A stretch of DNA of 64,000 nt. It comes from Acidimicrobiia bacterium. Its GTDB lineage: Bacteria; Actinomycetota; Acidimicrobiia; Spongiisociales; JAHEDJ01. Under the pieces are notes generated by a model. It was not told where the DNA came from. It was given only the letters and a program-made list of their open reading frames with translations, and ran no database searches. This document shows, one piece after another, positions 38,972-54,800 of the stretch. A program made the position numbers and the translations under genes. The stretch spans positions 1 through 64,000 of the forward strand of contig DATIPS010000011.1 of assembly GCA_035471805.1 (NCBI GenBank). Direction: 5' to 3'. Positions within the stretch are counted from its first letter, which is position 1. Every line of letters begins with the position of its first letter.

Positions 38972-40795
38972 TCAGCTCAGAAACCCGGCGGCTCTGGCCC
39001 TCTCGTCGAACACGCCGAGGACGCGCGCCTGCAGTTCGGCGAAGAACTCGGGAGTATTGAACTTGGGTACCTTGCTGTGCTCGATCGGGACGTGGGCCTC
39101 GGCCGGGACGACGTAGTCCTCCTCGACGAATCCCTGCCGTCGTTCGCTCGCGTAGCCGCGCAAGTAGGTTCTGCTCACGACTTCGCGCAAGTCATCGCCG
39201 GATACCGCCAGGCCGGCGGCCAACCGGAGGGCCTCGGCTTCGGCCTCGGGGTCGATGGCCGCGAACTTACAGAGTCCGGTGATGTCGTCCATCATGATCA
39301 TCGGACCGCGATTGGTTATGGCATCCACCCAGTAGTCCAGGCCCGTCTCGCGCTCGACCATCGCCAGCAGGAATGTGCGCATTCCCATGTGACCACCGGC
39401 CAGCGACCATGGGTAACCCGGGTTCGTGTGCGGCAGGTAAGCGGGGTACTCGACCCCCTTTGACTGCATGGCGTAATGCATGGACTCCAGTCGAGAAGCC
39501 AGCCGGAGCGAACCGTCGCCGATCTCGGGCAGCCTGCCTTCGCCCACCTCGCGAATGGCGTGTTCCGTGGCAGCCGCGTCACCGAAGGACAATCCGCCGG
39601 CGATGGGCAGATCGGGATTCCGACGATTGTGTTCCATGACAAAGCCGAGAGTCACCCCGAGAGATATGGAGTCCATCCCCAGCTGATCCACCAGTTCAAC
39701 GCGATCCAGCGCACCGTCCTGGTCGTAGAGACCGAGGTTGGATGAGAGGAGCGCCCATGGTTCGTAGTCGACCTTCGCCCGGAACGCACCCGCCGCGCCG
39801 TCGCTCTGCGCGTCGTACACGTTCTTGTGACATTTGATGCCGCACAAATAGCAGCTTTCCGCCTTGACCACGAAGGGACCGGCTTCGACGGAACTGCGTT
39901 GCAGTGCGAGGGCGTCCTGGGTGTCGGGCGGATGGAAGTTGAACTCGGGCAAGCCGCCCACTGCGTGCTGGGTCGGGATGTGACGCCAGGTTCCGCCGGC
40001 ACCGTCGTCCCGATACGGCTTGCTGCCCTCGCCGAGATTGATCAGGCGGTTCAGGTCTTTCAGGCCTCTGCCGGAGACGTTCGGGTTCGGACCATCTGCG
40101 GCGATGGCGAGGAGGTTCTTCGAGCCCATCACGCCGCCGTACCCGCCCCTTCCGCAGAATCGGGGTTTGGGATCACCGGTCTTGAGTTGGTTGTCGCTCG
40201 AGAGGGCGATTGAAGCGAATCGGACCGACTCGTAGTTCTCGCCGGCCGGGCCGATCACGGCGAAGTGGGCGTCCGGGTATCTGGTGTGGAGATCCTGGAT
40301 ACGGTCGTTTATGAGGCGCCCTTTCTGGTCCGTCGCGTCCAGGAACTCGACGGCGACCGGTCCGAGGGAGCCCCCGGGTTCCGCGCGCGGCGTCAGACGG
40401 ACCAGCGTCGGCTCCGGCGCCCGACCTGTGAAGATCACCTCGTCCACGCCCAGTCCGCGCAGTTTCGTTCCGAAATGACCGCTCCCGGCGGTCCACATCA
40501 GACCCGGGCGTCCGCTCAAAGAGCTCTTCAACGGCGAGTAGCCGTGGAAGTAGGTCCGCAAACCGGTCATGACCCTTGTGCCGCTCAGGAGACCGAGGTT
40601 CATGATGAGCGGAGCATCGGGGGAGTAGGGATCGGAAACCGGCAGGTCCCCCAGCAGCTTCGCCGCCCGGGCAATGCCTCCCAGAGCATCCTCGAGGTCC
40701 TCGCACGGGACCTGCTCCCAGCGAGCGGTGCCGGTGGACAGATCGATGTGATAGCGGCTCACCGTGAAGTCGGTCGCCGGTCGAAGTTCATCCAT
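38972..40795 (-). CDS. Aldehyde:ferredoxin oxidoreductase-family tungsto/molybdoenzyme
   Basis: A 607-residue AOR-type enzyme. The pterin-binding N-terminal domain includes GLRTYFHGYSPLKSS and GHFGTKLRGLGVDEV. The [4Fe-4S] ligands are in ESCYLCGIKCHK (C-x2-C-x3-C, about residues 320-330), with a distal Cys in DDITGLCKFA. A bis-pterin W or Mo centre is expected. It oxidises an aldehyde to an acid and passes electrons to ferredoxin. The length is normal. Upstream are a coupled 63-residue ORF and a promoter with an exact LacI-type operator between -35 and -10. AOR in a probable aerobe is unusual but known. Confidence 0.88.
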   Translation of the reverse strand: MDELRPATDFTVSRYHIDLSTGTARWEQVPCEDLEDALGGIARAAKLLGDLPVSDPYSPDAPLIMNLGLLSGTRVMTGLRTYFHGYSPLKSSLSGRPGLMWTAGSGHFGTKLRGLGVDEVIFTGRAPEPTLVRLTPRAEPGGSLGPVAVEFLDATDQKGRLINDRIQDLHTRYPDAHFAVIGPAGENYESVRFASIALSSDNQLKTGDPKPRFCGRGGYGGVMGSKNLLAIAADGPNPNVSGRGLKDLNRLINLGEGSKPYRDDGAGGTWRHIPTQHAVGGLPEFNFHPPDTQDALALQRSSVEAGPFVVKAESCYLCGIKCHKNVYDAQSDGAAGAFRAKVDYEPWALLSSNLGLYDQDGALDRVELVDQLGMDSISLGVTLGFVMEHNRRNPDLPIAGGLSFGDAAATEHAIREVGEGRLPEIGDGSLRLASRLESMHYAMQSKGVEYPAYLPHTNPGYPWSLAGGHMGMRTFLLAMVERETGLDYWVDAITNRGPMIMMDDITGLCKFAAIDPEAEAEALRLAAGLAVSGDDLREVVSRTYLRGYASERRQGFVEEDYVVPAEAHVPIEHSKVPKFNTPEFFAELQARVLGVFDERARAAGFLS

Positions 40796-41078: not shown

Positions 41079-42236
41079 CTAGAGCGCGGCCTCCCGCATT
41101 CGGGACGCCAGTTCTTCGTCCGGCTCGAGGATGTACACCCCGCCGAAGACCCGGTCGGTGGCATAGACCAGGCCATCCTCAGCGACGAACACGTCGTTGA
41201 TCTGCACGTCCTCCTGGTTCGGCGGAGTCTCAGGAATCCAGTAGGCGATCTCTCTCGGTCTATAGGCATCGGCGAGGTCGTAGACCCGCAATCCGGCGTT
41301 GAAGTAGGTCAAGAAGGAGATCTCCTCGCTGATGTAGCTTCCGGGCCGGTTCTCGTGCAGGCAGTGCGCGCCGAATCGCAAGCCCCGGTCGCAGAAGTCG
41401 CCTTCCGGAACCGGCAAGACGGAGATCACCCGCGGATCCCGCTCGTCGGAAACGTCGACCACCCTCGCCAGGCGGGCTCCCCCCTCGCAGCGGTTCTTGG
41501 TCTCCTCGTCGGTGGTGACCACCAGGCCGCGTCCTCCCAGGTGCAGCATCGTGTGGCTCTCTCCACCCGGTGACCAATCGAGAGTCGAGACCATCTCCGG
41601 GTTGGAGACGTCGGAGATGTCGAGTATGACCATTCCCCGGTCCCACATTCCGACGTAGGCACGGTCGCCGTCGACGAGTGCGTGGTGGATGGGTCGAGCT
41701 GTTTCATACCCCGGATCTCCGGAGACATCTTCCCGTGGTGTCCACCACCGGCCCGCCTCCACCGGGTTCTGCGGATCACTCATGTCGACGATGACCAGGA
41801 TGCGGCCCTCGAATCCCTCCGGAATGGCAGACACGAAGGCATAGCGTCCACCCGTCCACCAGATACGATGCACGCCCCGCCCGCCGGATTCGAAGAACCC
41901 GATCTGCTGCGGATCAAACGGATCTTCCAGGTTGTAGACGGCCATCCCGGCCGAGTAGGGGTCGCCTCCCCGAAACTGCTCGTGATTGACGAGGAGCAGC
42001 CCATCGGCGACCTGAACCTTGTGGGTATGACTCCCCGCCGGGGACCTCCATTGTCTGACGACCGTCGGCTCGTTCACGTCTTCGACGTCGAGGATGCTGG
42101 TACCCATCCCACTGACACCGAAGTGACCGACGTAGAGGGCATTCCCTTCCCGGATCACCTGCATCCCGTCGCCGTAGCCGTTGAGGTTCGAGTGTCCAAC
42201 CTGTCTGAGTCCGCTCATTTCGGCCGGCCGCATCAT
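41079..42236 (-). CDS. LVIVD-repeat beta-propeller protein
   Basis: A 385-residue protein made of repeated propeller blades. Visible repeat units include TSILDVEDVNEPTVVRQW, LVIVDMSDPQNPVEAGRW, MVILDISDVSNPEMVSTL, ARVVDVSDERDPRVISVL and LRVYDLADAYRPREIAYW. This is the LVIVD pattern, giving about five to seven blades. No signal peptide is seen, so it is probably cytoplasmic. Function is unknown; such folds bind ligands or scaffold enzymes. The ATG at 42236 was chosen because GGGAG lies 5 nt upstream. The operator at 42420 lies in the spacer to the divergent lyase operon and could regulate both. Confidence 0.85.
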   Translation of the reverse strand: MMRPAEMSGLRQVGHSNLNGYGDGMQVIREGNALYVGHFGVSGMGTSILDVEDVNEPTVVRQWRSPAGSHTHKVQVADGLLLVNHEQFRGGDPYSAGMAVYNLEDPFDPQQIGFFESGGRGVHRIWWTGGRYAFVSAIPEGFEGRILVIVDMSDPQNPVEAGRWWTPREDVSGDPGYETARPIHHALVDGDRAYVGMWDRGMVILDISDVSNPEMVSTLDWSPGGESHTMLHLGGRGLVVTTDEETKNRCEGGARLARVVDVSDERDPRVISVLPVPEGDFCDRGLRFGAHCLHENRPGSYISEEISFLTYFNAGLRVYDLADAYRPREIAYWIPETPPNQEDVQINDVFVAEDGLVYATDRVFGGVYILEPDEELASRMREAAL

Positions 42237-45535: not shown

Positions 45536-46278
45536 AGGAAACCCGGGAGGATCCCCGGATTGTCGCGGGGCTGCGCCGGCAACTGGCACTCCGGCAAATG
45601 ATGCTCGACGGGGGAGCGGTCGGAGTCGGCTGGAAGGTCGGTTTTGGTTCTCCATCGGCGATGGACCTCATGCAGATCATCGCCCCGCTGACCGGGTTCA
45701 TGACCGATGTCACTTTGATCGACTCGGGCGCCACCGTTGAAACCGCGGGTTGGGTCGGAGGCTTCGTCGAGTTCGAGGTAGCCGTTTACCTGGGTGAGGA
45801 TCTCCCGCCCGGTCTGTCGGAGGACGCAGCCAGGGCGGCCATCGCGGCCGTTGGACCGGCGATCGAGCTGGCCAACGTCGACCGGCCGGTCGGGCCGGAG
45901 TTCGTTGAAGAGATTCTGGCAGGCGACATCTTCCACAAGGGCGTGATTCTCGGCGAACGGGACGCGACAAGAGCAGGGCTCGACATCAGCGGGCTGTCGG
46001 CCCGGGTCCTGATCGACGGTCGTGAATATGCGGCAACCGCAAACCTCGAGGCCAACACCGGTTCCTGCCCGCGGGCCGTGAAGACCGTTGCGGATGCACT
46101 GGGAGCACAGGGGGAGAGGTTGCGGGCGGGGGATGTGATCATCACCGGCGCGGTGATCCCACCGGTTCCGACGGCGGAAGGCAAGGTTTACACCTTTTTC
46201 CTGGACCCCTTCCCGCCCATTTCGGTGGTTGTGGAGACGGCCCCGGTGGATCAGGCATCGCTGCGTGGATCTTCATAG
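45532..46278 (+). CDS. 2-keto-4-pentenoate hydratase / FAH-superfamily protein
   Basis: A 248-residue FAH-fold protein of the hydratase/decarboxylase branch. Key features are AVGVGWKVGFGS near the N-terminus, EFEVAVYLGEDLP (metal ligands), AIELANVDRP, and a C-terminal LRAGDVIITGAVIPPV. It would add water to or cleave a 2-keto acid. In the lyase operon it may process the 2-keto product. The ATG at 45532 overlaps the cupin stop (ATGA). Its last 28 bp overlap the end of the convergent MFS gene. The substrate is unknown. Confidence 0.82.
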   Translation: MKETREDPRIVAGLRRQLALRQMMLDGGAVGVGWKVGFGSPSAMDLMQIIAPLTGFMTDVTLIDSGATVETAGWVGGFVEFEVAVYLGEDLPPGLSEDAARAAIAAVGPAIELANVDRPVGPEFVEEILAGDIFHKGVILGERDATRAGLDISGLSARVLIDGREYAATANLEANTGSCPRAVKTVADALGAQGERLRAGDVIITGAVIPPVPTAEGKVYTFFLDPFPPISVVVETAPVDQASLRGSS

Positions 46279-47537
46279 GGCGAGTCCTCTTCGCGGCCGG
46301 CCCGGTAGGCGGTGAATTCCGGCATCCTCCGCGCAATGATCAGAGCTCCGAGAATGCAAGCCAGGCCTCCGGACACGACCGAAATCTGGGGTGATGTGAC
46401 CGAGGCAACCGCCCCGGCTTCGAAGTCGCCAAGGCGCGGCCCGCCGCTCACCACCGCGATGTGAATCGAAGAGAGCCGCCCCCTCAACCGGTCGGGCACC
46501 GCCAGCTGCAGGATCGTGTTGCGGAAGACTGCGGAAACCACGTCGGCGGCTCCGGCCACCGCCAGAAGCAGCACAGCCAGAACGGTGGACTTGGCAAGGC
46601 CGAACGAACCGATCGCGACTCCCCAGACGATCACCGCGATCACCACCGCCCGCCCCTGGCGCCGAATGAAACCCACCCATCCAGAGGTTACGGCGGCGAT
46701 GAGGGCGCCAGCCCCCGGCGCCGCGTACAGGAGGCCGACGGTGGTGGCGTCCCCGCCCAGCACAGTCACCCCGATAGCCGGGAAGAGAGCCTGCGGCATT
46801 CCGAAGATCATGGCGTTCAGGTCGATTGCGAAGTTGGCTTGGAGTAGCCGCCGCTCACGCAGGAACGAGTATCCCTCCCTGATCGACTCCCATCCGAAGC
46901 GCCTGCCGCCTCCCTCGGGCTTCAGTGAGCCGATCCTGATCATGAACAGGGTGCCGACTGCGAAGGCCACCGCCTCCAGCCCGTAGGTGACGGTCAGGCT
47001 GGTCCGCGCGATCAGCAGTCCGCCGATTGCCGGTCCGACGGTCTTGGCGACGTTGCCGAGTATCTGGGTCAGTGCCAGCGCCGCGGGTAGAAGATCTCGG
47101 CCCACCAACGCGGGTACCGAGGCGGTTCGCGCAGGGTTGTCGATCGCGGAAACGCCGGCGTTCAGCCCGCTGAGAACGAAGATGAGCCACACCTTGGGTG
47201 CGGTCAGCGAGGCATTGACGGCGAGGCCAACGGCGGTGCCCGTCATGCAGAGCTGGGCAATCACCAGCAGACGACGACGGTCGACGGAGTCGACGATCGC
47301 CCCGCCGACGATCGAAGTCAATAGCAGCGGCACGAGTTGAGCTATTCCGAGGGCGCCGACCAGGAAGGTCGAGCCGGTCAGCTGATAGACCTGATACGGC
47401 ACGGCCACCACCGTCAGTTGGCGACCCAGCCATGCCAGCGAGAGCCCTCCGTACAACCATCGGAAGTCGACCGACTGTCGGAGAGGGGTCACGTCGGCGA
47501 GGAGCCGTGCGGAAGGGCGGGGGCGCGGGTCGCTCAT
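46251..47537 (-). CDS. MFS exporter (EntS-like, MFS_3 family)
   Basis: A 428-residue major-facilitator protein with about 10-12 membrane helices. The loop SVDRRRLLVIAQLC and the VPALVGRDLLPAALALTQI segment match EntS/MFS_3-type exporters, which release siderophores or drugs. Its 3' end overlaps the convergent FAH gene by 28 bp. It starts at the ATG at 47537, 39 bp after the stop of the AhpD-like gene, and is probably co-transcribed with it. No transport substrate can be assigned from the sequence. No siderophore genes are near. Confidence 0.85.
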   Translation of the reverse strand: MSDPRPRPSARLLADVTPLRQSVDFRWLYGGLSLAWLGRQLTVVAVPYQVYQLTGSTFLVGALGIAQLVPLLLTSIVGGAIVDSVDRRRLLVIAQLCMTGTAVGLAVNASLTAPKVWLIFVLSGLNAGVSAIDNPARTASVPALVGRDLLPAALALTQILGNVAKTVGPAIGGLLIARTSLTVTYGLEAVAFAVGTLFMIRIGSLKPEGGGRRFGWESIREGYSFLRERRLLQANFAIDLNAMIFGMPQALFPAIGVTVLGGDATTVGLLYAAPGAGALIAAVTSGWVGFIRRQGRAVVIAVIVWGVAIGSFGLAKSTVLAVLLLAVAGAADVVSAVFRNTILQLAVPDRLRGRLSSIHIAVVSGGPRLGDFEAGAVASVTSPQISVVSGGLACILGALIIARRMPEFTAYRAGREEDSPYEDPRSDA

Positions 47538-47576: not shown

Positions 47577-48143
47577 TTAGGAACTATGAGCCAGCCCCAC
47601 GTCGGAGTCACCCAGAACCTCCTGGTGGCCGATGCCGAGGGTCTTGATCCATCTCTGCTGTCCGCTGGTCAATGCGATGAAGAATCCCAGTTCGACCAAC
47701 TCGGGCTCCGTGAAGTGTTCATGGAGTTGCCGCCAGAGAGCCTCATCGGCGATGGCGGAGTCCCAGATGATCGCACTGGTGTAGCGCAGCGCGGTCTTCT
47801 CCCGCTCGGTGAAACGGGCGGACTCTTCGAACTCCAGTAGATCGTCGTAGTCGGCCTCGGTGAGCCCTTTCCGTCCAGCCTGGACGGATCGCTGGACTCC
47901 TCAGTAGTCGCAGGCGATCGACTTCGACACGTAGACCCGGCACAGCTCCTTGATCTCGTGGTCGAGCACGCCGTCCAGGAAAGTGGTCCGCCACGCCTGG
48001 GTGAAGGCGTGGAGCACTGCGGGTACATGTGATCGAATCGCCTGGCTCTCCGGGCGAGGGGTGCTGTGCAGGCGCCCGTATTCCACGATTTCACGGTCTG
48101 CGGGGTCTAGTTCCTCGAGATCCGGGTAGCTGATATTCGGCAC
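47577..48143 (-). CDS. AhpD/CMD-family protein with in-frame TGA, probable selenoprotein (CxxU)
   Basis: A 188-codon frame interrupted only by a TGA at 47903-47901 (codon 81). Before it the sequence reads YVSKSIACDY, after it GVQRSVQAGRKGLTEADYDD. The TGA falls where AhpD/carboxymuconolactone-decarboxylase-like proteins have the second Cys of a CxxC redox motif, giving CDYU. The downstream part is a normal continuation of the same frame (ALRYTSAIIWDSAI, LVELGFFIALTSGQQ) ending at TAA 47577. A SECIS-like hairpin lies 20 nt after the TGA. It would be a peroxidase-type thiol/selenol enzyme. The GTG start has GGAGG 4-5 nt upstream. A nonsense mutation is the alternative. Confidence 0.75.
47870..47888 (-). 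promoter_or_regulatory. Putative bacterial SECIS hairpin
   Basis: Minus-strand TCCGTCCA, loop GGC, TGGACGGA: a perfect 8-bp stem with an apical loop that begins with two G. The loop starts 20 nt after the in-frame TGA, inside the 16-37 nt window described for bacterial SECIS elements, and the loop GG is also as described. It lies within coding sequence, as bacterial SECIS elements do. Confidence 0.65.
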
Positions 48144-48277
48144 ACGACCTCCTTGCTGGCCCGGACTCTACCGGTTGACTTTGGAACACGGACGTCCACC
48201 GCCGAAGGGCCCGGCGGCGAGTGAGTCTGCCCGGGGTCCGGCCCGCCCGCATACTCCGGGCGTCCCATCGGTTGAGG

Positions 48278-49642
48278 TCAACTCTTCATCTCGTCGGGCA
48301 AGGTGTCGAGGACGCAAGCGGCTTCGTGACCCGGGCCGCGTGAAGTCAGGGCGACCTCGGCCACAGAGCGGAAGCGTATATGTACCGTCCGCTCGGTCAC
48401 CTCGAGCAATTCGAGGGCCTCGATCATGGCGGCCGGGACCCGGTTGGATCGCAGAGCCGTGGCCAGCGCATCGGCGGATCCATGGTCTGTGAACTCGAGC
48501 GACCCGCCGAACTCGTCGGTCCGCTCCACCGCTCTGAGCCCGTCCAGGAGCCCCTCTTCGTCCTGCAGCCAGCGAACCACGTCGTCCAGTTCCCATCCAC
48601 AGGCCGGCGTTGCGGCGGGGCATCGGGTATGGAATCGGCACCCTTGCGGTGGTCGAGCGGGATCCGGAACCGATCCTTCGAGAGGTTGCATGGGCACATC
48701 GGAGTCGTCGGAGACGTCCGGGCTGGCGGCCAGCAGGGCGGCCGTATAGGGGTGATTCGGCCGCTCGAACAGATCGCCGGTGGCTGCCGCCTCGGCGACC
48801 TTCCCCAGGTACATGACCACGATCCGATCGGCCATGTGCCGAACAACGGACAGGTCGTGGGAGATGAAGAGATAGGTGAGTCCGAGCTCCTTCTGGAGTT
48901 CGTGGAGGAGGTTGAGGATCTGAGCCTGTACCGACACATCGAGGGCACTGGTCGGCTCATCGAGTACCAGCAGCTCCGGGTCCAGGGCCAGGGCGCGTGC
49001 GATAGAGATTCGCTGGCGCTGGCCGCCGGAGAACTGATGTGGATACCGATAGAGATGCTGGCTGCCGAGGCCCACCTGTTCGAGCAGGTCGACGACCCGG
49101 TCGGTCAGGTCGCTGCCGGATGCTTCGCGGTGGATCCTCAGCGGCCGCCCAACGATGTCCTTGACGAACTGACGCGGATTGAGCGACGAGAACGAATCCT
49201 GAAACACGACTTGGCAGTTGCGCCGATAGTGTTTCCAGCGTTCGCCCTCCAGCCGATCCACCCTGTGAACCCGGCTCATCTCCTCCAGTTCCGCCCGGTG
49301 TTCCTCTGTTTGGCTCTCCTGCGGAACTGCCAGGAGGGCATTGATGCGATCCCGCTCGTTTTCGGACAGATCGAAGAACACGCCGCCGGCTGTGGGTTCC
49401 GTCAATCCCGATACGCACCGGCCGAGCGTGGTCTTGCCGCAGCCACTCTCACCGACCAGGCCGAGCGTCTCTCCTCTGCGAAGATCGAAGTCGACGCCGT
49501 CGACGGCCTTGACGCTTCCCACCACTCTCTGCAGGGCGCCTTCTTTGATCGGGAAGTGCTTCTGGAGGTTGCGAACACTGAGCAAGATTTCGCCTGGCGT
49601 CGAGGCCTCGATCGGCCCCGCCGTTCGGGTGGAGATCGTCAT
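48278..49642 (-). CDS. Oligopeptide/dipeptide-type ABC ATPase (OppF/DppF-like) with insert and extension
   Basis: A 454-residue ATPase, longer than usual (about 330). Walker A is [12 protein letters not shown], the signature is [16 protein letters not shown], Walker B is [13 protein letters not shown], and an oligopeptide-type C-terminal region with RFHTRCP follows. Compared with OppF there are about 30 extra charged residues between Walker A and the Q-loop (roughly residues 92-140) and a C-terminal extension of about 100 residues. It powers import of peptides or other large solutes with OppD. The ATG at 49642 overlaps the OppD stop (ATGA). The same position carries an insert in OppD, so both may contact a common partner. 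Confidence 0.88.
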
Positions 49643-50961
49643 AGCCGTCCCCCTGAGAAGCTCGGGGCCGTCAGTGTGCTGTCGGACGGCTGTTGATGAA
49701 TGAAGCACGCGACCGGATGCGACACCCCTGAGTCCGACAGTCGCGGGTCACGTTTCCAGCACAGGTCCGCGGCGTGCGGGCACCTCCCGGCGAATCGGCA
49801 GGCCGGATCCGGGTCGATCAGCTCGGGGACCGTGCCGTCGATCACCACCAACCGGCCCCGCTCATGCTGGGCCGACGGGATGGCCGCCAGGAGACCCCGC
49901 GTATAGGGATGAAGGGGATCGTGGAATATCTGCTCGGTCGGACCGACCTCCACGATGCGCCCGGCATACATGACTGCCACTCGATCGCTCACCCGCTTGA
50001 CCAGGGCCAGGTCGTGGCTGATATACAGAACCGCCGCCCGGCGTCGCTGCTGCAGCTCGCGGACGAGCTCGAGTATGCGGGCCTGGACGGTCACATCGAG
50101 GGCGGTGGTGGGTTCGTCGGCGATCAACAGGTCTGGATTGCAGGCGAGAGCCTGGGCGATCATCACCCGCTGCCGCATGCCTCCCGACAGCTCGTGGGGG
50201 TACCGTTCCATGACCTTGTGGGGATTGGGAATCTGGGTTTCGGCGAGCGCCTCGGCGACCATCTCCTCGACGGCCCGGTCGATGCGGTCGCGGCTTCGGC
50301 GGACCCTGGGCAGGCCGAGAAGTATCCGCTCCGGCATCCGTGATCGAAAGGATGCCCGCCTGCGTAGCACTCGTCCGGTATCCGCCCGGTCCAGGCCGGC
50401 GCGGTCGAGGATCTCGTTGGCGCGATGTTCGTAGAAGACTTCGGCGATTTGCTGACCGATGGGCATTGCCGGATTCAGAGCTTTCCCGGGGTCTTGAAAG
50501 ATCATCGCGATCCGGTTGCCCCGGATATCCCGGAGGCGGTTTTCCGGGATCGACATGAGATCAAGTGTCTCTCTGCCGCTGTCCTCGCATACCGCGCAGC
50601 CCTTGCCGTCACAGCTCGGGCACGCTACCGGCGTCCGGCCGCTCCCACGACACGTTTCGCATCCGCTTCCCCCGCATGCAGAACAGGGTTCTTTGGGATG
50701 GAACAGGACAAGACCGCCGGCGTGCATTCCGGGCGGCATGGGGACGAGCCGCAAGAAGGACCGCGCAGTGACGCTCTTGCCGCAACCGGTCTCGCCTACC
50801 AGACCCAGCGTCTCACCGTCCCGGATGTCGAAGGAAACGCCGTCCACGGCGTGCACCACTCCGGCCTTCGAACTGAAGTGGACGCGCAGGTCTTCGACCG
50901 AGGCAACCGCATCCACGTGGCGGGCGGCGGCCGACGGCTGGCTCGATTCAGCGACGGTCAT
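49639..50961 (-). CDS. OppD-type ABC ATPase with DnaJ-like zinc-ribbon insertion
   Basis: A 440-residue ATPase. Walker A is [12 protein letters not shown] (about residues 53-64), the Q-loop is [12 protein letters not shown] (about 153), the signature is [16 protein letters not shown], Walker B is [13 protein letters not shown] and the C-terminal Cys motif is [14 protein letters not shown]. Between Walker A and the Q-loop there is an insert with eight cysteines in four CxxC pairs at residues 93/96, 101/104, 114/117 and 122/125, three of them as CxxCxGxG, as in DnaJ zinc fingers. It probably binds two zinc ions. Both ends overlap neighbours (ATGA), so it is part of the importer operon. The role of the ribbon is unknown. 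Confidence 0.88.
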
Positions 50962-51887
50962 CGGCTGGTCTCCGTGCGCGGGTCGAGCACGTCACGCAGG
51001 CCGTCGCCGACCAGGTTGAACGCCAGCGCCCATATGAAGACCATCAAACCGGGGAAGGTCGAAGCCCACCACCGCCCGGCCGAAATGCCCACCTGTCCTT
51101 CTGAGACCAACACGCCCCATTCGGCCAGGCCGGCTTCGGCCAGGCCGATGAAGCTGAGGGTGGCGCCGACGAGCACGATATGACCCATATCGAGCGTCGC
51201 CTGCACGACAACGGGCGTGATCGAGTTCGGAAGGATGTCCTTCAGGTAGATGCGCCATCGGGAGTCACCGATCATGCGGGCTGCGTCCACGTAGTCGTTC
51301 TGCTTCACGTGGATGACCTGGGCGCGCATGATTCGGGCGTACTTGACCCAGAACACAACGGCCAAAGCCAGGATGATGTTGCGAAAAGAAGGCCCGAGCA
51401 CGGCGGCGATGGCGAGGGCAAAGATCAGTTCCGGAATCGAGAGGAAGACGTCGACGATTCGCATGAGGATCTCGTCGAACCGGCCACCGCGGAAACCGGC
51501 AACGCTGCCGACCGCCACACCAACGGCTGCGGTGATGCTCACCACGATGATCGACAACCTGAGCGAAGTCCGGGCTCCCCAGACGATGCCGTAGTAGACA
51601 TCGCCGCCGGTGTTGGTGGTGCCCAGTGGATGCCCGGGGGTGCCGGGCGGTTCGTTGAGGGCACCCCAATCGCGGGGCATCTGGTAGGCGTCGGGCGTGT
51701 TCGGCTCGGTGATCCACGGCGCCAGCAGCGCCATGGCGAGCATGGCCGAGATCATGATGATTCCGACGGCGGTGGTCGGATTGGAGGCAACATTCTTCGC
51801 GATCTCGCCGGCGCGGCGAAGGCGGACCCGGGCGGCCGACTCGCGGGACGGGGTCATGGTGTTGAGAGATTCTGTGACGTCCACCAT
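50958..51887 (-). CDS. Oligopeptide/dipeptide-type ABC permease (DppC/OppC-like)
   Basis: A 309-residue permease with about six membrane helices. It has DppC features: the N-terminal extended domain with [15 protein letters not shown], the [22 protein letters not shown] segment, and the coupling loop [23 protein letters not shown]. With DppB it forms the membrane channel. The ATG at 51887 follows the DppB stop by 2 bp (TGA TC ATG). Its stop overlaps the OppD start. It is part of the operon binding protein, DppB, DppC, OppD, OppF. Confidence 0.9.
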
Positions 51888-51889
51888 GA

Positions 51890-52903
51890 TCAAGCCCCCA
51901 ATACAACTCGACGGTCGAGGTACGCATAGACAACGTCCACGATGAGATTGACGAACAGGAAGAGGATGCTGGTGAACATCACGTAGGCCATGATCGTGGC
52001 CTGGTCTCCGCGCAGCACGGCGTCTGCCATCCAACGTCCCAGTCCCGGCCAGCGAAAAATGATCTCGGCGACCACGGTGCCTTGCAGGAGGAAGCCGAAG
52101 CTGAGCCCGATCACCGTCACCGTCGGGATCAAGGCATTGCGCCGAGCGTGCCTCCGCAGGACCAGGCGCTCGGGGAGTCCCTTTGCCCTGGCCGCGTCGA
52201 CGTAGTCTTCCTGGAGTTCCTCGATCAGCGAAGAGCGCATCATTCGTGCGATGATCGCCGTTGCCCCGTAACCGATCGACAGGGCCGGAAGCACCAGGTG
52301 CCAGACGGCGTCGCGTAGTGCACCGAAGTCGCCTGCGATGATCGCGTCCAGGGTGTACAGGCCGGTCGGGTGCTGGATGCGGCCGAAGATGTCGGGGTCG
52401 CTTCTCCCGATGGGGAACCACCCGAGATACACCCAGAAGACGATCAGCAGGAGAATGGCGAACCAGAACAGCGGCATGCTGGCACCGCTGATCGAGACAA
52501 CCCGGGTGACGTGATCGGGTATACGGTTTCTGCGTGCTCCGGCGAATGTCCCGAGGCTTATGCCGATGGAGACGGCGACGATGGCCGAAGCTATCGCCAG
52601 TTCCATGGAGGCGGCGAGCTTCTTGGGGAACACCTCGGTAACCGGGGCGGCGGCAACTCCCGACCAGCCCAAATCACCGGTGACGACACCGCCCGCCCAG
52701 TAGAAATACTGAACGGGAAGGGGGTCGTCGAGATGGAAGCGTTCCTCGAGTTCCGCAACCTCGTCAGGGCTCATCTCGTGCGAGAGGTAGATCCCAATCG
52801 GAGAACCGCCGACTCTGGTCAGCGTGAACACGATGATTGAGGTCCCGATCACCAGGATCGGGAGGACCATCAGCCTTCTGAGCACATAGTCCTTGATCTG
52901 CAT
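51890..52903 (-). CDS. Oligopeptide/dipeptide-type ABC permease (DppB/OppB-like)
   Basis: A 337-residue inner-membrane permease with about six helices. The N-terminal YVLRRLMVLPILVIGTSI and the coupling loop YVDAARAKGLPERLVLRRHARRNALIP are typical of DppB. The GWSGVAAAPVTEVFPKKLAASMELA region starts the core domain. I chose the ATG at 52903; an earlier GTG frame adds 14 residues. Two strong hairpins separate it from the binding-protein gene upstream, which may give unequal expression. It carries the solute captured by the binding lipoprotein across the membrane. Confidence 0.9.
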   Translation of the reverse strand: MQIKDYVLRRLMVLPILVIGTSIIVFTLTRVGGSPIGIYLSHEMSPDEVAELEERFHLDDPLPVQYFYWAGGVVTGDLGWSGVAAAPVTEVFPKKLAASMELAIASAIVAVSIGISLGTFAGARRNRIPDHVTRVVSISGASMPLFWFAILLLIVFWVYLGWFPIGRSDPDIFGRIQHPTGLYTLDAIIAGDFGALRDAVWHLVLPALSIGYGATAIIARMMRSSLIEELQEDYVDAARAKGLPERLVLRRHARRNALIPTVTVIGLSFGFLLQGTVVAEIIFRWPGLGRWMADAVLRGDQATIMAYVMFTSILFLFVNLIVDVVYAYLDRRVVLGA

Positions 52904-52920
52904 GGGAACCGCTTCCTTGC

Positions 52921-52967
52921 CGCTCTCTTTGCCAACCGCCCACAAGGGGCGGTTGGCAAAGAGAGCG
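52921..52967 (-). terminator. 21-bp perfect hairpin after the Opp binding-protein gene
   Basis: Left arm 52921-52941 pairs perfectly with 52947-52967 around a 5-nt loop. It lies between the binding-protein stop at 53006 and the permease start. There is no T-run on the transcribed strand, so partial termination or 3'-end protection of the binding-protein mRNA is likely. Confidence 0.8.
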
Positions 52968-52995
52968 GGGGTGCCGGCATGGCCGACACCCCCGC
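52965..52995 (-). terminator. Second hairpin, adjoining the first
   Basis: GCGGGGGTG at 52965-52973 pairs with CACCCCCGC at 52987-52995. An inner CGGC/GCCG helix sits in the loop after one mismatch. It shares three bases with the first hairpin, so the two structures could be alternatives. Confidence 0.7.
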
Positions 52996-53005
52996 TGGTG
53001 GTTGC

Positions 53006-54739
53006 TTACTTGTCGAAGAGGGCGAACTTCACGTTCGGCCGTGGCCACAGCGGGTTGAGGATGAAACCCTCGACCCAGTCGCGATGGGCATTGGCGATTC
53101 CCTCTTGGGCCGTGATGAGCCACATCGGGTCCTCGTAGAGGAGCCTCTGGAGCTCGGCGTAAAGATCGGCTCGCCGGTCACTGTCGAGTTCCTGGGCGGC
53201 GTCGTCGATGAGTTCGGCGATCCGATCAGGATCCTGGTAACCCTTGCGGAAGCCGTGGACCTCGCCCCATTCACCGTCTGGATGGGCATACGCCTGCAGG
53301 TAGGCGTCGGGATCGGCGAACGGATCCGCGTTCTTGACCCACATCGCGTACGGCACGGGGTCGGAGGCATGGGCATCGTCGAACTGTGCCTCCGCCACCG
53401 CCAGCACCCGGATCGTGAAGTTCGGGTTGAGCGCCTCGATCGAGTCCTTCAACACCAGTGCGGCCGTCTCGAATAGGTTGGCTTCCTCGGTGATGACCGA
53501 CACGGTGAAGCCTTCGTCCCAGACTCCCGCCGCCCGGAACAGCTCTTCGGCCTTGGCCAGATCCTGCTTGTCGTACAGCGGTGCCGTCGGATCGTACCCG
53601 AACACGCCGATCGGAATGTAGTGCGGGTTGAAGTCGCCGAACCCGCCGAGCGCCCCTTGCAGGAATGCGTTGTAGTCGTAGGCGTAGTTGAACGCCTGAC
53701 GAATCCGCGGGTCGTTGAAGAAGTCGCCGGAGATGGTGTCCTCGTCCGGGAGCTCGTCTTCGGGCATGTTGAGATTGAAGCCGATGTGTATCGGTTCGAG
53801 CAGCAGCCCGCCGCTGTAGATGACCACACCGTCGGCGCCTTCGAGGTCACCGATGAACGAGGGATCTGTTTCGATCATGTCGAAATCGCCGGCCCGGAGA
53901 CCGAGCACTCGAACATCGGGATCGGAACCTATCTCAACTCGCAGATCCAGGTTGGCCGGGGTGCCCCAGTAGTCCTCGAAGATTGAGAACTGCAGGTTTT
54001 CGTTGCGGTTCCACTCTTCGAACTTGTAAGGGCCGGTCCCGACCATGTTCGTGGCCATGAACTCGTTGGGCTCGCCGGCGACGACACCGCCGTTGGCCTC
54101 GACCGCCTCCTGGCTGACCACCGAGGCCACCATGGAGGTCACGACCGCCCGCAGGAATGAAGCACTTCGCTCCTGGAGGGTCACTTCAAAAGTGAACTCG
54201 TCGACGACTCGGGTCTCGACGACATTGTCAATCAACAGGTCGGCCGCCGACTCCGGGAGATCCATGGTCATGACGCGGTCCCACGAGTACTTGACATCAT
54301 CGGCCGTCAGCGGGCTGCCGTCGTGGAAGACAACACCCTCGCGGATCGGGAACGTGAACGTGAGGCCATCCGCCGAGATCAGGCCGTTCTCCACCGAGGG
54401 AACCTCGGTCGAGAGGGACGGGACGAGGTCTGGTCCGTCCGGAGCGATCTCGACCAGGCGCTCGTAGACCTGGAGAATCATCGTCTCGCCGCCTTCACCA
54501 GGTTCGACCTGTGCAGGATCGAGGGTGGTCGGTTCATCATCAGCGGCATGAACGAAGACCCCCGGATTGCTTACTTCGGTGCCGCCACCGCCGTCGCCCT
54601 CCGTTGTCTCTGTTCCGGCGGAAGTGGTTGTTCCCCCGTCATCGTCGCTCGACGAACACGCCGCCACGACCAGGGCAAATACAAGGAGTAGAACGATCCA
54701 TCCTCGGAAGTTGCTGGAACCACGATTCGCTGTCGACAT
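53006..54739 (-). CDS. Extracellular solute-binding lipoprotein, SBP family 5
   Basis: A 577-residue secreted lipoprotein. The signal peptide ends in the lipobox LVVAAC, followed by a Ser/Asp/Thr/Gly linker. The mature domain has family-5 features (PTTLDPAQ, DGLTFTFPIREGVVFHDGSPLTADDV, and a later NDPRIRQAFNYAYD helix). It binds peptides, nickel chelates or oligosaccharide-like solutes outside the membrane and hands them to DppBC. The ATG at 54739 has GGGAGG about 6 nt upstream. A LacI-type operator with 16-bp dyad symmetry lies 46 bp upstream, so uptake is probably induced by the regulator's ligand. Confidence 0.9.
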   Translation of the reverse strand: MSTANRGSSNFRGWIVLLLVFALVVAACSSSDDDGGTTTSAGTETTEGDGGGGTEVSNPGVFVHAADDEPTTLDPAQVEPGEGGETMILQVYERLVEIAPDGPDLVPSLSTEVPSVENGLISADGLTFTFPIREGVVFHDGSPLTADDVKYSWDRVMTMDLPESAADLLIDNVVETRVVDEFTFEVTLQERSASFLRAVVTSMVASVVSQEAVEANGGVVAGEPNEFMATNMVGTGPYKFEEWNRNENLQFSIFEDYWGTPANLDLRVEIGSDPDVRVLGLRAGDFDMIETDPSFIGDLEGADGVVIYSGGLLLEPIHIGFNLNMPEDELPDEDTISGDFFNDPRIRQAFNYAYDYNAFLQGALGGFGDFNPHYIPIGVFGYDPTAPLYDKQDLAKAEELFRAAGVWDEGFTVSVITEEANLFETAALVLKDSIEALNPNFTIRVLAVAEAQFDDAHASDPVPYAMWVKNADPFADPDAYLQAYAHPDGEWGEVHGFRKGYQDPDRIAELIDDAAQELDSDRRADLYAELQRLLYEDPMWLITAQEGIANAHRDWVEGFILNPLWPRPNVKFALFDK

Positions 54740-54784
54740 TCTTCCTCCCTCTGCCCGGAGTCGGTCTGCCCCGAGCAAACAAGC

Positions 54785-54800
54785 GTGCAATCGTTTGCAC
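54785..54800. promoter_or_regulatory. LacI-family operator, extended palindrome GTGCAATCGTTTGCAC
   Basis: The best dyad among the sites: 16 bp that read nearly the same on both strands around CAATCGTTTG. It lies 46 bp upstream of the Opp binding-protein start. Confidence 0.85.

Follow-up and report, generated by a model that had tools for sequence, protein, structure and literature searches.

A CMD/AhpD-like gene of an Acidimicrobiia bacterium with a predicted selenocysteine at its active site

Introduction

Selenoproteins of the CMD family with a CxxU motif were described from the Sargasso Sea in 2005 (PMC1088965), 'AhpD-like 2' selenoproteins are known from GOS (PMC2398784), and CMD-like selenoproteins, with MBW1767730.1 as an example, are included in a 2026 review (PMC13188914). 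CMD/AhpD-fold CxxU selenoproteins as a kind have therefore been on record from 2005 onwards, in agreement with the remark in an earlier note on the present DNA that AhpD-like selenoproteins occur in metagenomes. A literature search on selenoproteins of Acidimicrobiia returned nothing useful. Among related proteins of solved structure, PA0269 has a proton relay made up of Glu36, Cys48, Tyr50, Cys51 and His55, and its H2O2-reducing activity is weak (PMC3141380).

The gene studied here lies in a stretch of 64,000 nucleotides from an Acidimicrobiia bacterium (the window). It almost certainly encodes a CMD/AhpD-like selenoprotein, in which selenocysteine (Sec) would be placed at position 81 by means of a hairpin in the message and which would most likely work as a selenol/thiol oxidoreductase. 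The earlier note had proposed a selenoprotein from the sequence alone; this is now strongly supported by the Sec machinery found in the genome, the interchange of TGA and Cys codons among homologues and the conservation of the hairpin.

Gene, fold and active site

The gene occupies positions 47577–48143 on the minus strand. It begins with a GTG at 48143, and a Shine-Dalgarno-like AAGGAGG can be read 4 bases 5′ of this start (48148–48154, minus strand). The frame contains a single TGA (47903–47901) and continues beyond it for 107 conserved codons to a TAA (47579–47577), which agrees with the original reading of the frame. The read-through product is 188 residues long, with the TGA in the context IACDY-U-GVQRS. 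Under translation table 11 the open reading frame (47901–48143) ends at 80 residues, as the earlier note had expected, so that gene calling cuts the protein immediately before its active-site Sec. The same truncation faces 39 other unique TGA-containing genes, and the subfamily is thus easily overlooked in metagenome-assembled genomes (MAGs).

The read-through protein matches Pfam family PF02627 (carboxymuconolactone decarboxylase, CMD) with 32.8 bits against a gathering cut-off of 23; the match spans the TGA and was recovered in a search of the genome as well, there with a single TGA within it. An AF2 model (pLDDT 92, pTM 0.87) has the all-helical AhpD fold, and the best Foldseek matches in the PDB are AhpD-like proteins (2prr, 6k40 and 2ijc, with TM up to 0.8). 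Among proteins of solved structure, PA0269, Bmp8 and Atu0492 are nearest to it in a sequence-profile comparison. The TGA (47901–47903, minus strand) corresponds to U81, the second active-site position of C78-x-Y80-U81, and E66, C78, Y80 and U81 are spaced as are E36, C48, Y50 and C51 of PA0269. The codon for E66 (47946–47948, minus strand) has the E-x11-C spacing of the AhpD proton-relay Glu and encodes Glu in all 93 unique homologues; by analogy with PA0269 and Mycobacterium tuberculosis AhpD, E66 may be the relay Glu. The relay His of AhpD, four residues past the second Cys, is absent and is replaced here by Arg85. Arg is also present at this position in 39 of the 40 unique TGA genes (Lys in one) and in 52 of the 53 unique Cys homologues. 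The description 'AhpD-like' is accordingly apt with respect to the fold and to four proton-relay residues out of five, the fifth being the exception. Because the relay His has been exchanged for Arg, peroxidase activity should not be assumed and the peroxidase mechanism may not apply.

In the mechanism that we propose, SelB carrying Sec-tRNA(UCA) would bind the hairpin 13–31 nt behind the UGA, and Sec would be put in at position 81 in place of termination. A C78-x-x-U81 redox pair would then be formed beside E66 and Y80, in which U81 would attack a peroxide or another electrophilic substrate, C78 would resolve the selenenyl intermediate, and cellular thiol donors would regenerate the pair. The predicted product is a selenol/thiol redox enzyme, its substrate class most likely being a peroxide or another electrophile.

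Gene neighbourhood and substrate

Downstream, on the same strand, is an MFS transporter gene (46251–47537, minus), which accompanies the gene in four further Acidimicrobiia loci and in none beyond. Upstream are Opp/Dpp-type ABC transporter genes (48278–54790, minus) for two ATPases, permeases and a family-5 solute-binding protein, whose functional link to the gene is putative. Genes of the creatininase, Gfo/Idh/MocA, dienelactone-hydrolase-like, 2-hydroxyacid dehydrogenase, FAH and galactarate-dehydratase types are found nearby. The window also contains an aldehyde ferredoxin oxidoreductase (AFOR) gene at 38972–40795, near catabolic genes of the sugar-acid type. Creatininase, Gfo/Idh/MocA and MFS neighbours are shared among Acidimicrobiia only, and no operon partner conserved across phyla was found in an all-against-all comparison of neighbours, the clusters of which were dominated by shadow ORFs. 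Since a part of this context recurs in other Acidimicrobiia but in no other phyla, the neighbourhood yields no firm substrate.

The strongest alternative concerns the substrate only. The selenoprotein could be a non-peroxidase, a Sec-dependent reductase that acts on another electrophile (by reductive dehalogenation as in Bmp8, or on a disulfide) as part of a catabolic gene set, and we give this somewhat less than an even chance. The replacement of the AhpD His by Arg is in its favour, as are the presence of Bmp8 among the closest solved relatives (profile E 5.9e-12, fold TM 0.73) and the position of the gene between transporter genes and near those for creatininase, Gfo/Idh/MocA, dienelactone-hydrolase-like, FAH and hydroxyacid dehydrogenase proteins; Bmp8 is, however, no closer than the weak H2O2 reducer PA0269 (PMC3141380), and none of the neighbouring genes is conserved across phyla.

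TGA and Cys codons among homologues

Table 11 reads the TGA as a stop, in which case the gene would be a pseudogene or would encode a truncated protein of 80 residues. The gene can indeed be lost: the other four genomes of its genus are without a copy, and it is for this reason an accessory or mobile gene. A genuine stop is nevertheless very improbable, and the first argument against it comes from the homologues. Over all loci the codon at the site is TGA in 49 (40 unique) or TGC/TGT in 57 (53 unique), with no other codon present, and the TGA thus stands at the second Cys of the CxxC motif (CDY-TGA), as the earlier note had placed it. The relatives show Cys or TGA, with neither truncation nor frameshift at the site. 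On both sides of the TGA dN is ~0.07–0.34 and dS ~0.8–2.9; for the downstream half compared with relatives of the order, dN is 0.09–0.24 and dS 0.8–2.8, and the upstream half gives similar values. The low dN relative to dS 3′ of the TGA means that the downstream half evolves as protein, and the read-through is coding. Sequencing error was considered as a source of the TGA and rejected.

The TGA genes are found in Acidimicrobiia, Rokubacteria, Myxococcota/Binatota, Chloroflexota, Armatimonadota, ANGP1 and Burkholderiales. In a scan of GTDB contigs 80 homologues were kept, and the closest among the matches listed belong to Acidimicrobiia MAGs; the order of the source genome contains 11 further genomes with the TGA gene (70–88% identity), several of which additionally carry Cys paralogues (58–65% identity). 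Outside the clade of this order there are 27 unique TGA genes. A tblastn search of a plasmid collection returned distant homologues only (27–32% identity). One of the 40 unique TGA genes (L026, 38% identity) is a member of a more distant CMD group (34–38% identity), in which an in-frame TGA (CNYU in L026) adjoins a second CMD paralogue; L026 reached no NCBIfam cut-off. The loci of this group are L026, G008:C12:31533-32713, G021:C79, G048:C38, G050:C174, G122:C191 and G123:C45, and in G008 both neighbouring CMD genes contain a TGA, so that the group has the appearance of a tandem selenoprotein pair.

On the tree of the family, the Sec genes of Acidimicrobiia are sister to the Cys paralogues of Acidimicrobiia (support 87/82), whilst the remaining Sec genes form a second clade (support 96/96). 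Both a single origin of Sec, with a reversion to Cys in the paralogue, and two separate gains of Sec would fit this tree. We favour the single origin, because the hairpin is nearly identical in the two Sec clades. The close Sec and Cys paralogues, which sometimes lie on one contig, lend themselves to a comparison of what an enzyme of the AhpD type gains from Sec.

The hairpin downstream of the TGA

Behind the TGA lies a hairpin of the bacterial SECIS type (47870–47888, minus strand), TCCGTCCA-GGC-TGGACGGA, with an 8-bp stem (47888–47881 paired with 47877–47870) and a 3-nt apical loop (GGC, 47880–47878). The perfect stem and GGC loop of the earlier note stand; its distance of twenty nucleotides is true of the loop, the stem starting at only 12 nt from the TGA. 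A 45-nt fold has an energy of −20.8 kcal/mol (z = −2.96), and none of 200 shuffled sequences was equally stable. At the exact stem position 7–9 pairs can be formed in all 40 unique TGA genes and 0–2 in all 53 unique Cys genes, the loop in the former being GGC or GGG, and the mean predicted energies are −17.1 and −11.1 kcal/mol, respectively (p = 3e-11). The hairpin is more than chance, because it recurs together with the TGA in 39 other unique homologues and is absent from the 53 Cys homologues.

Compensatory changes, with both sides altered, occur at five of the eight stem pairs; shuffles, which ignore relatedness, average 1.3 and reach the observed number in 0 of 500 cases, and when the structure was slid by 1–3 columns, which keeps relatedness, at most one compensatory pair was left. 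In the Chloroflexi, where the stem reads CTGCCCA/TGGGCAG, the protein has Ala in place of Val and Gln in place of Arg, yet the stem still pairs perfectly, so that it is the pairing that is conserved rather than the amino acids. In the codon alignment, synonymous divergence is lowest of the whole gene at codons 86–91, which form the stem (0.13, compared with 0.50–0.52 elsewhere). A covariance model of the element scores this site at 70.2 bits in the window, a value that is itself no test since the window sequence was part of the model; the next best hit, at 16.5 bits, is the reverse complement of the element. The SECIS-like element of the earlier note is thus borne out as a conserved and covarying stem-loop just 3′ of the TGA, with a small G-containing loop. 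In one Cys paralogue (L043), a CGTCGGC-GCCGACG palindrome is found 3′ of the TGC, near the former position of the hairpin, and could be a SECIS remnant or a product of chance.

Selenocysteine machinery

The source genome (2.85 Mb, 97% complete) contains tRNA-Sec (75.2 bits, anticodon TCA), selA (431 bits) immediately followed by selB (342 bits), both above the NCBIfam cut-offs, and selD (401 bits); all four genes for which the earlier note had advised a search (selA, selB, selC and selD) are therefore present. Neither of the two outcomes that the earlier note had named as refuting its proposal, missing sel genes or a truncated or frameshifted gene in close relatives, was observed. selD (L045:1501-2430, contig C31) is a selenoprotein gene in its own right, with an in-frame TGA close to its start in the GUACK motif (GSGUACK). 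A second gene of the CMD/AhpD type, P0003 (L002:1300-1950, contig C55, ~41571-42221), also has an in-frame TGA (NECFYUVLSH) and scores 214.6 bits against NF041238 AhpD_rel_CFYUT, above the cut-off of 175. The genome thus holds at least three TGA-containing selenoprotein genes. tRNA-Sec and selA are common across the genomes of the order too.

selA was found in 17 of 21 genomes with the TGA gene and in 14 of 28 with the Cys gene (p = 0.04, one Cys genome being scored from split partial matches); this lends weak support, given the incompleteness of MAGs and the other selenoproteins that Cys genomes may hold. No selB match was obtained in five TGA-bearing MAGs outside Acidimicrobiia (L080, L085 and L087, HR32-like/Armatimonadota; L073 and L100, ANGP1), all of which have a TGA copy with an intact hairpin, and selA above the cut-off was absent from the four of them covered by the selA search (L080, L087, L073 and L100). 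tRNA-Sec is clear in the genomes of L087 and L100; L080, L085 and L073 gave tRNA-Ser-like matches only. Since two of the five do carry tRNA-Sec, incomplete assembly is the likely cause of the selB gaps, although divergent machinery may be an alternative. The three related MAGs of the HR32-like group are all without selB, which is notable beside incompleteness as an explanation.

We rejected a pseudogene in view of the recurrence of this TGA in 40 unique genes, the low dN/dS downstream of it, the covarying hairpin and the complete Sec machinery. TGA reassignment and misreading occur in some lineages, but that this TGA is decoded as Trp or Cys independently of selenium, through a reassigned or near-cognate tRNA, is less probable still, as homologues have Cys and never Trp at the site (Trp was rejected on this ground), the hairpin is confined to TGA genes, and the genome encodes SelB and a dedicated tRNA-Sec. 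We infer that Sec is inserted at position 81.

Comparison with known systems

The published CMD and CMD-like selenoproteins share with the present protein PF02627, Sec at the second CxxC position and a bacterial SECIS behind the TGA (PMC1088965, PMC2398784, PMC13188914); they were compared by description only, and the present subfamily may be among them. Of the NCBIfam models, NF053654 GroundWater_YciW, a YciW-related (seleno)protein family, matches best (E 3.5e-12, covering most of the protein), but the protein is not a member of it: it scores 46.4 bits and the relatives of its subfamily 45–72 bits, against a cut-off of 310. NF041238 likewise describes a CxxU selenoprotein of the AhpD type, but its member in this genome is P0003, a different gene located elsewhere, and the present gene (P0001) gave no match to it up to E = 1. 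In the NCBIfam release searched, the present subfamily stays below the cut-off of every selenoprotein model.

PA0269 (2O4D, 2IJC) and M. tuberculosis AhpD have the same fold and the E-x11-C-x-Y/H-C relay positions; they differ in the relay His (H55 and H137, respectively), which is Arg85 here, and in having Cys in place of Sec at the second position. The debrominase Bmp8 (6OHI, 6OHJ) also shares the fold and the CxxC motif, with a significant profile match; at ~20% identity it has Cys rather than Sec and retains CxxCxxxH, and its substrate specificity is unlikely to transfer to the present protein. The signature of the subfamily is E-x11-C-x-Y-U-x-x-Q-R-S, with the AhpD His replaced by Arg. 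We consider the chances slightly better than even that genes of the form E-x11-C-x-Y-U-G-V-Q-R-S are an undescribed subfamily of CMD/AhpD-fold selenoproteins, spread over Acidimicrobiia, Rokubacteria, Myxococcota/Binatota, Chloroflexota, Armatimonadota/ANGP1 and Burkholderiales, in which the SECIS is under such constraint that its pairing dictates protein residues and the Cys paralogues of Acidimicrobiia probably go back to a duplication followed by reversion from Sec (the alternative being two gains of Sec with almost identical hairpins). It would add a cross-phylum selenoprotein subfamily to the poorly cultivated lineages Acidimicrobiia, Rokubacteria and Binatota.
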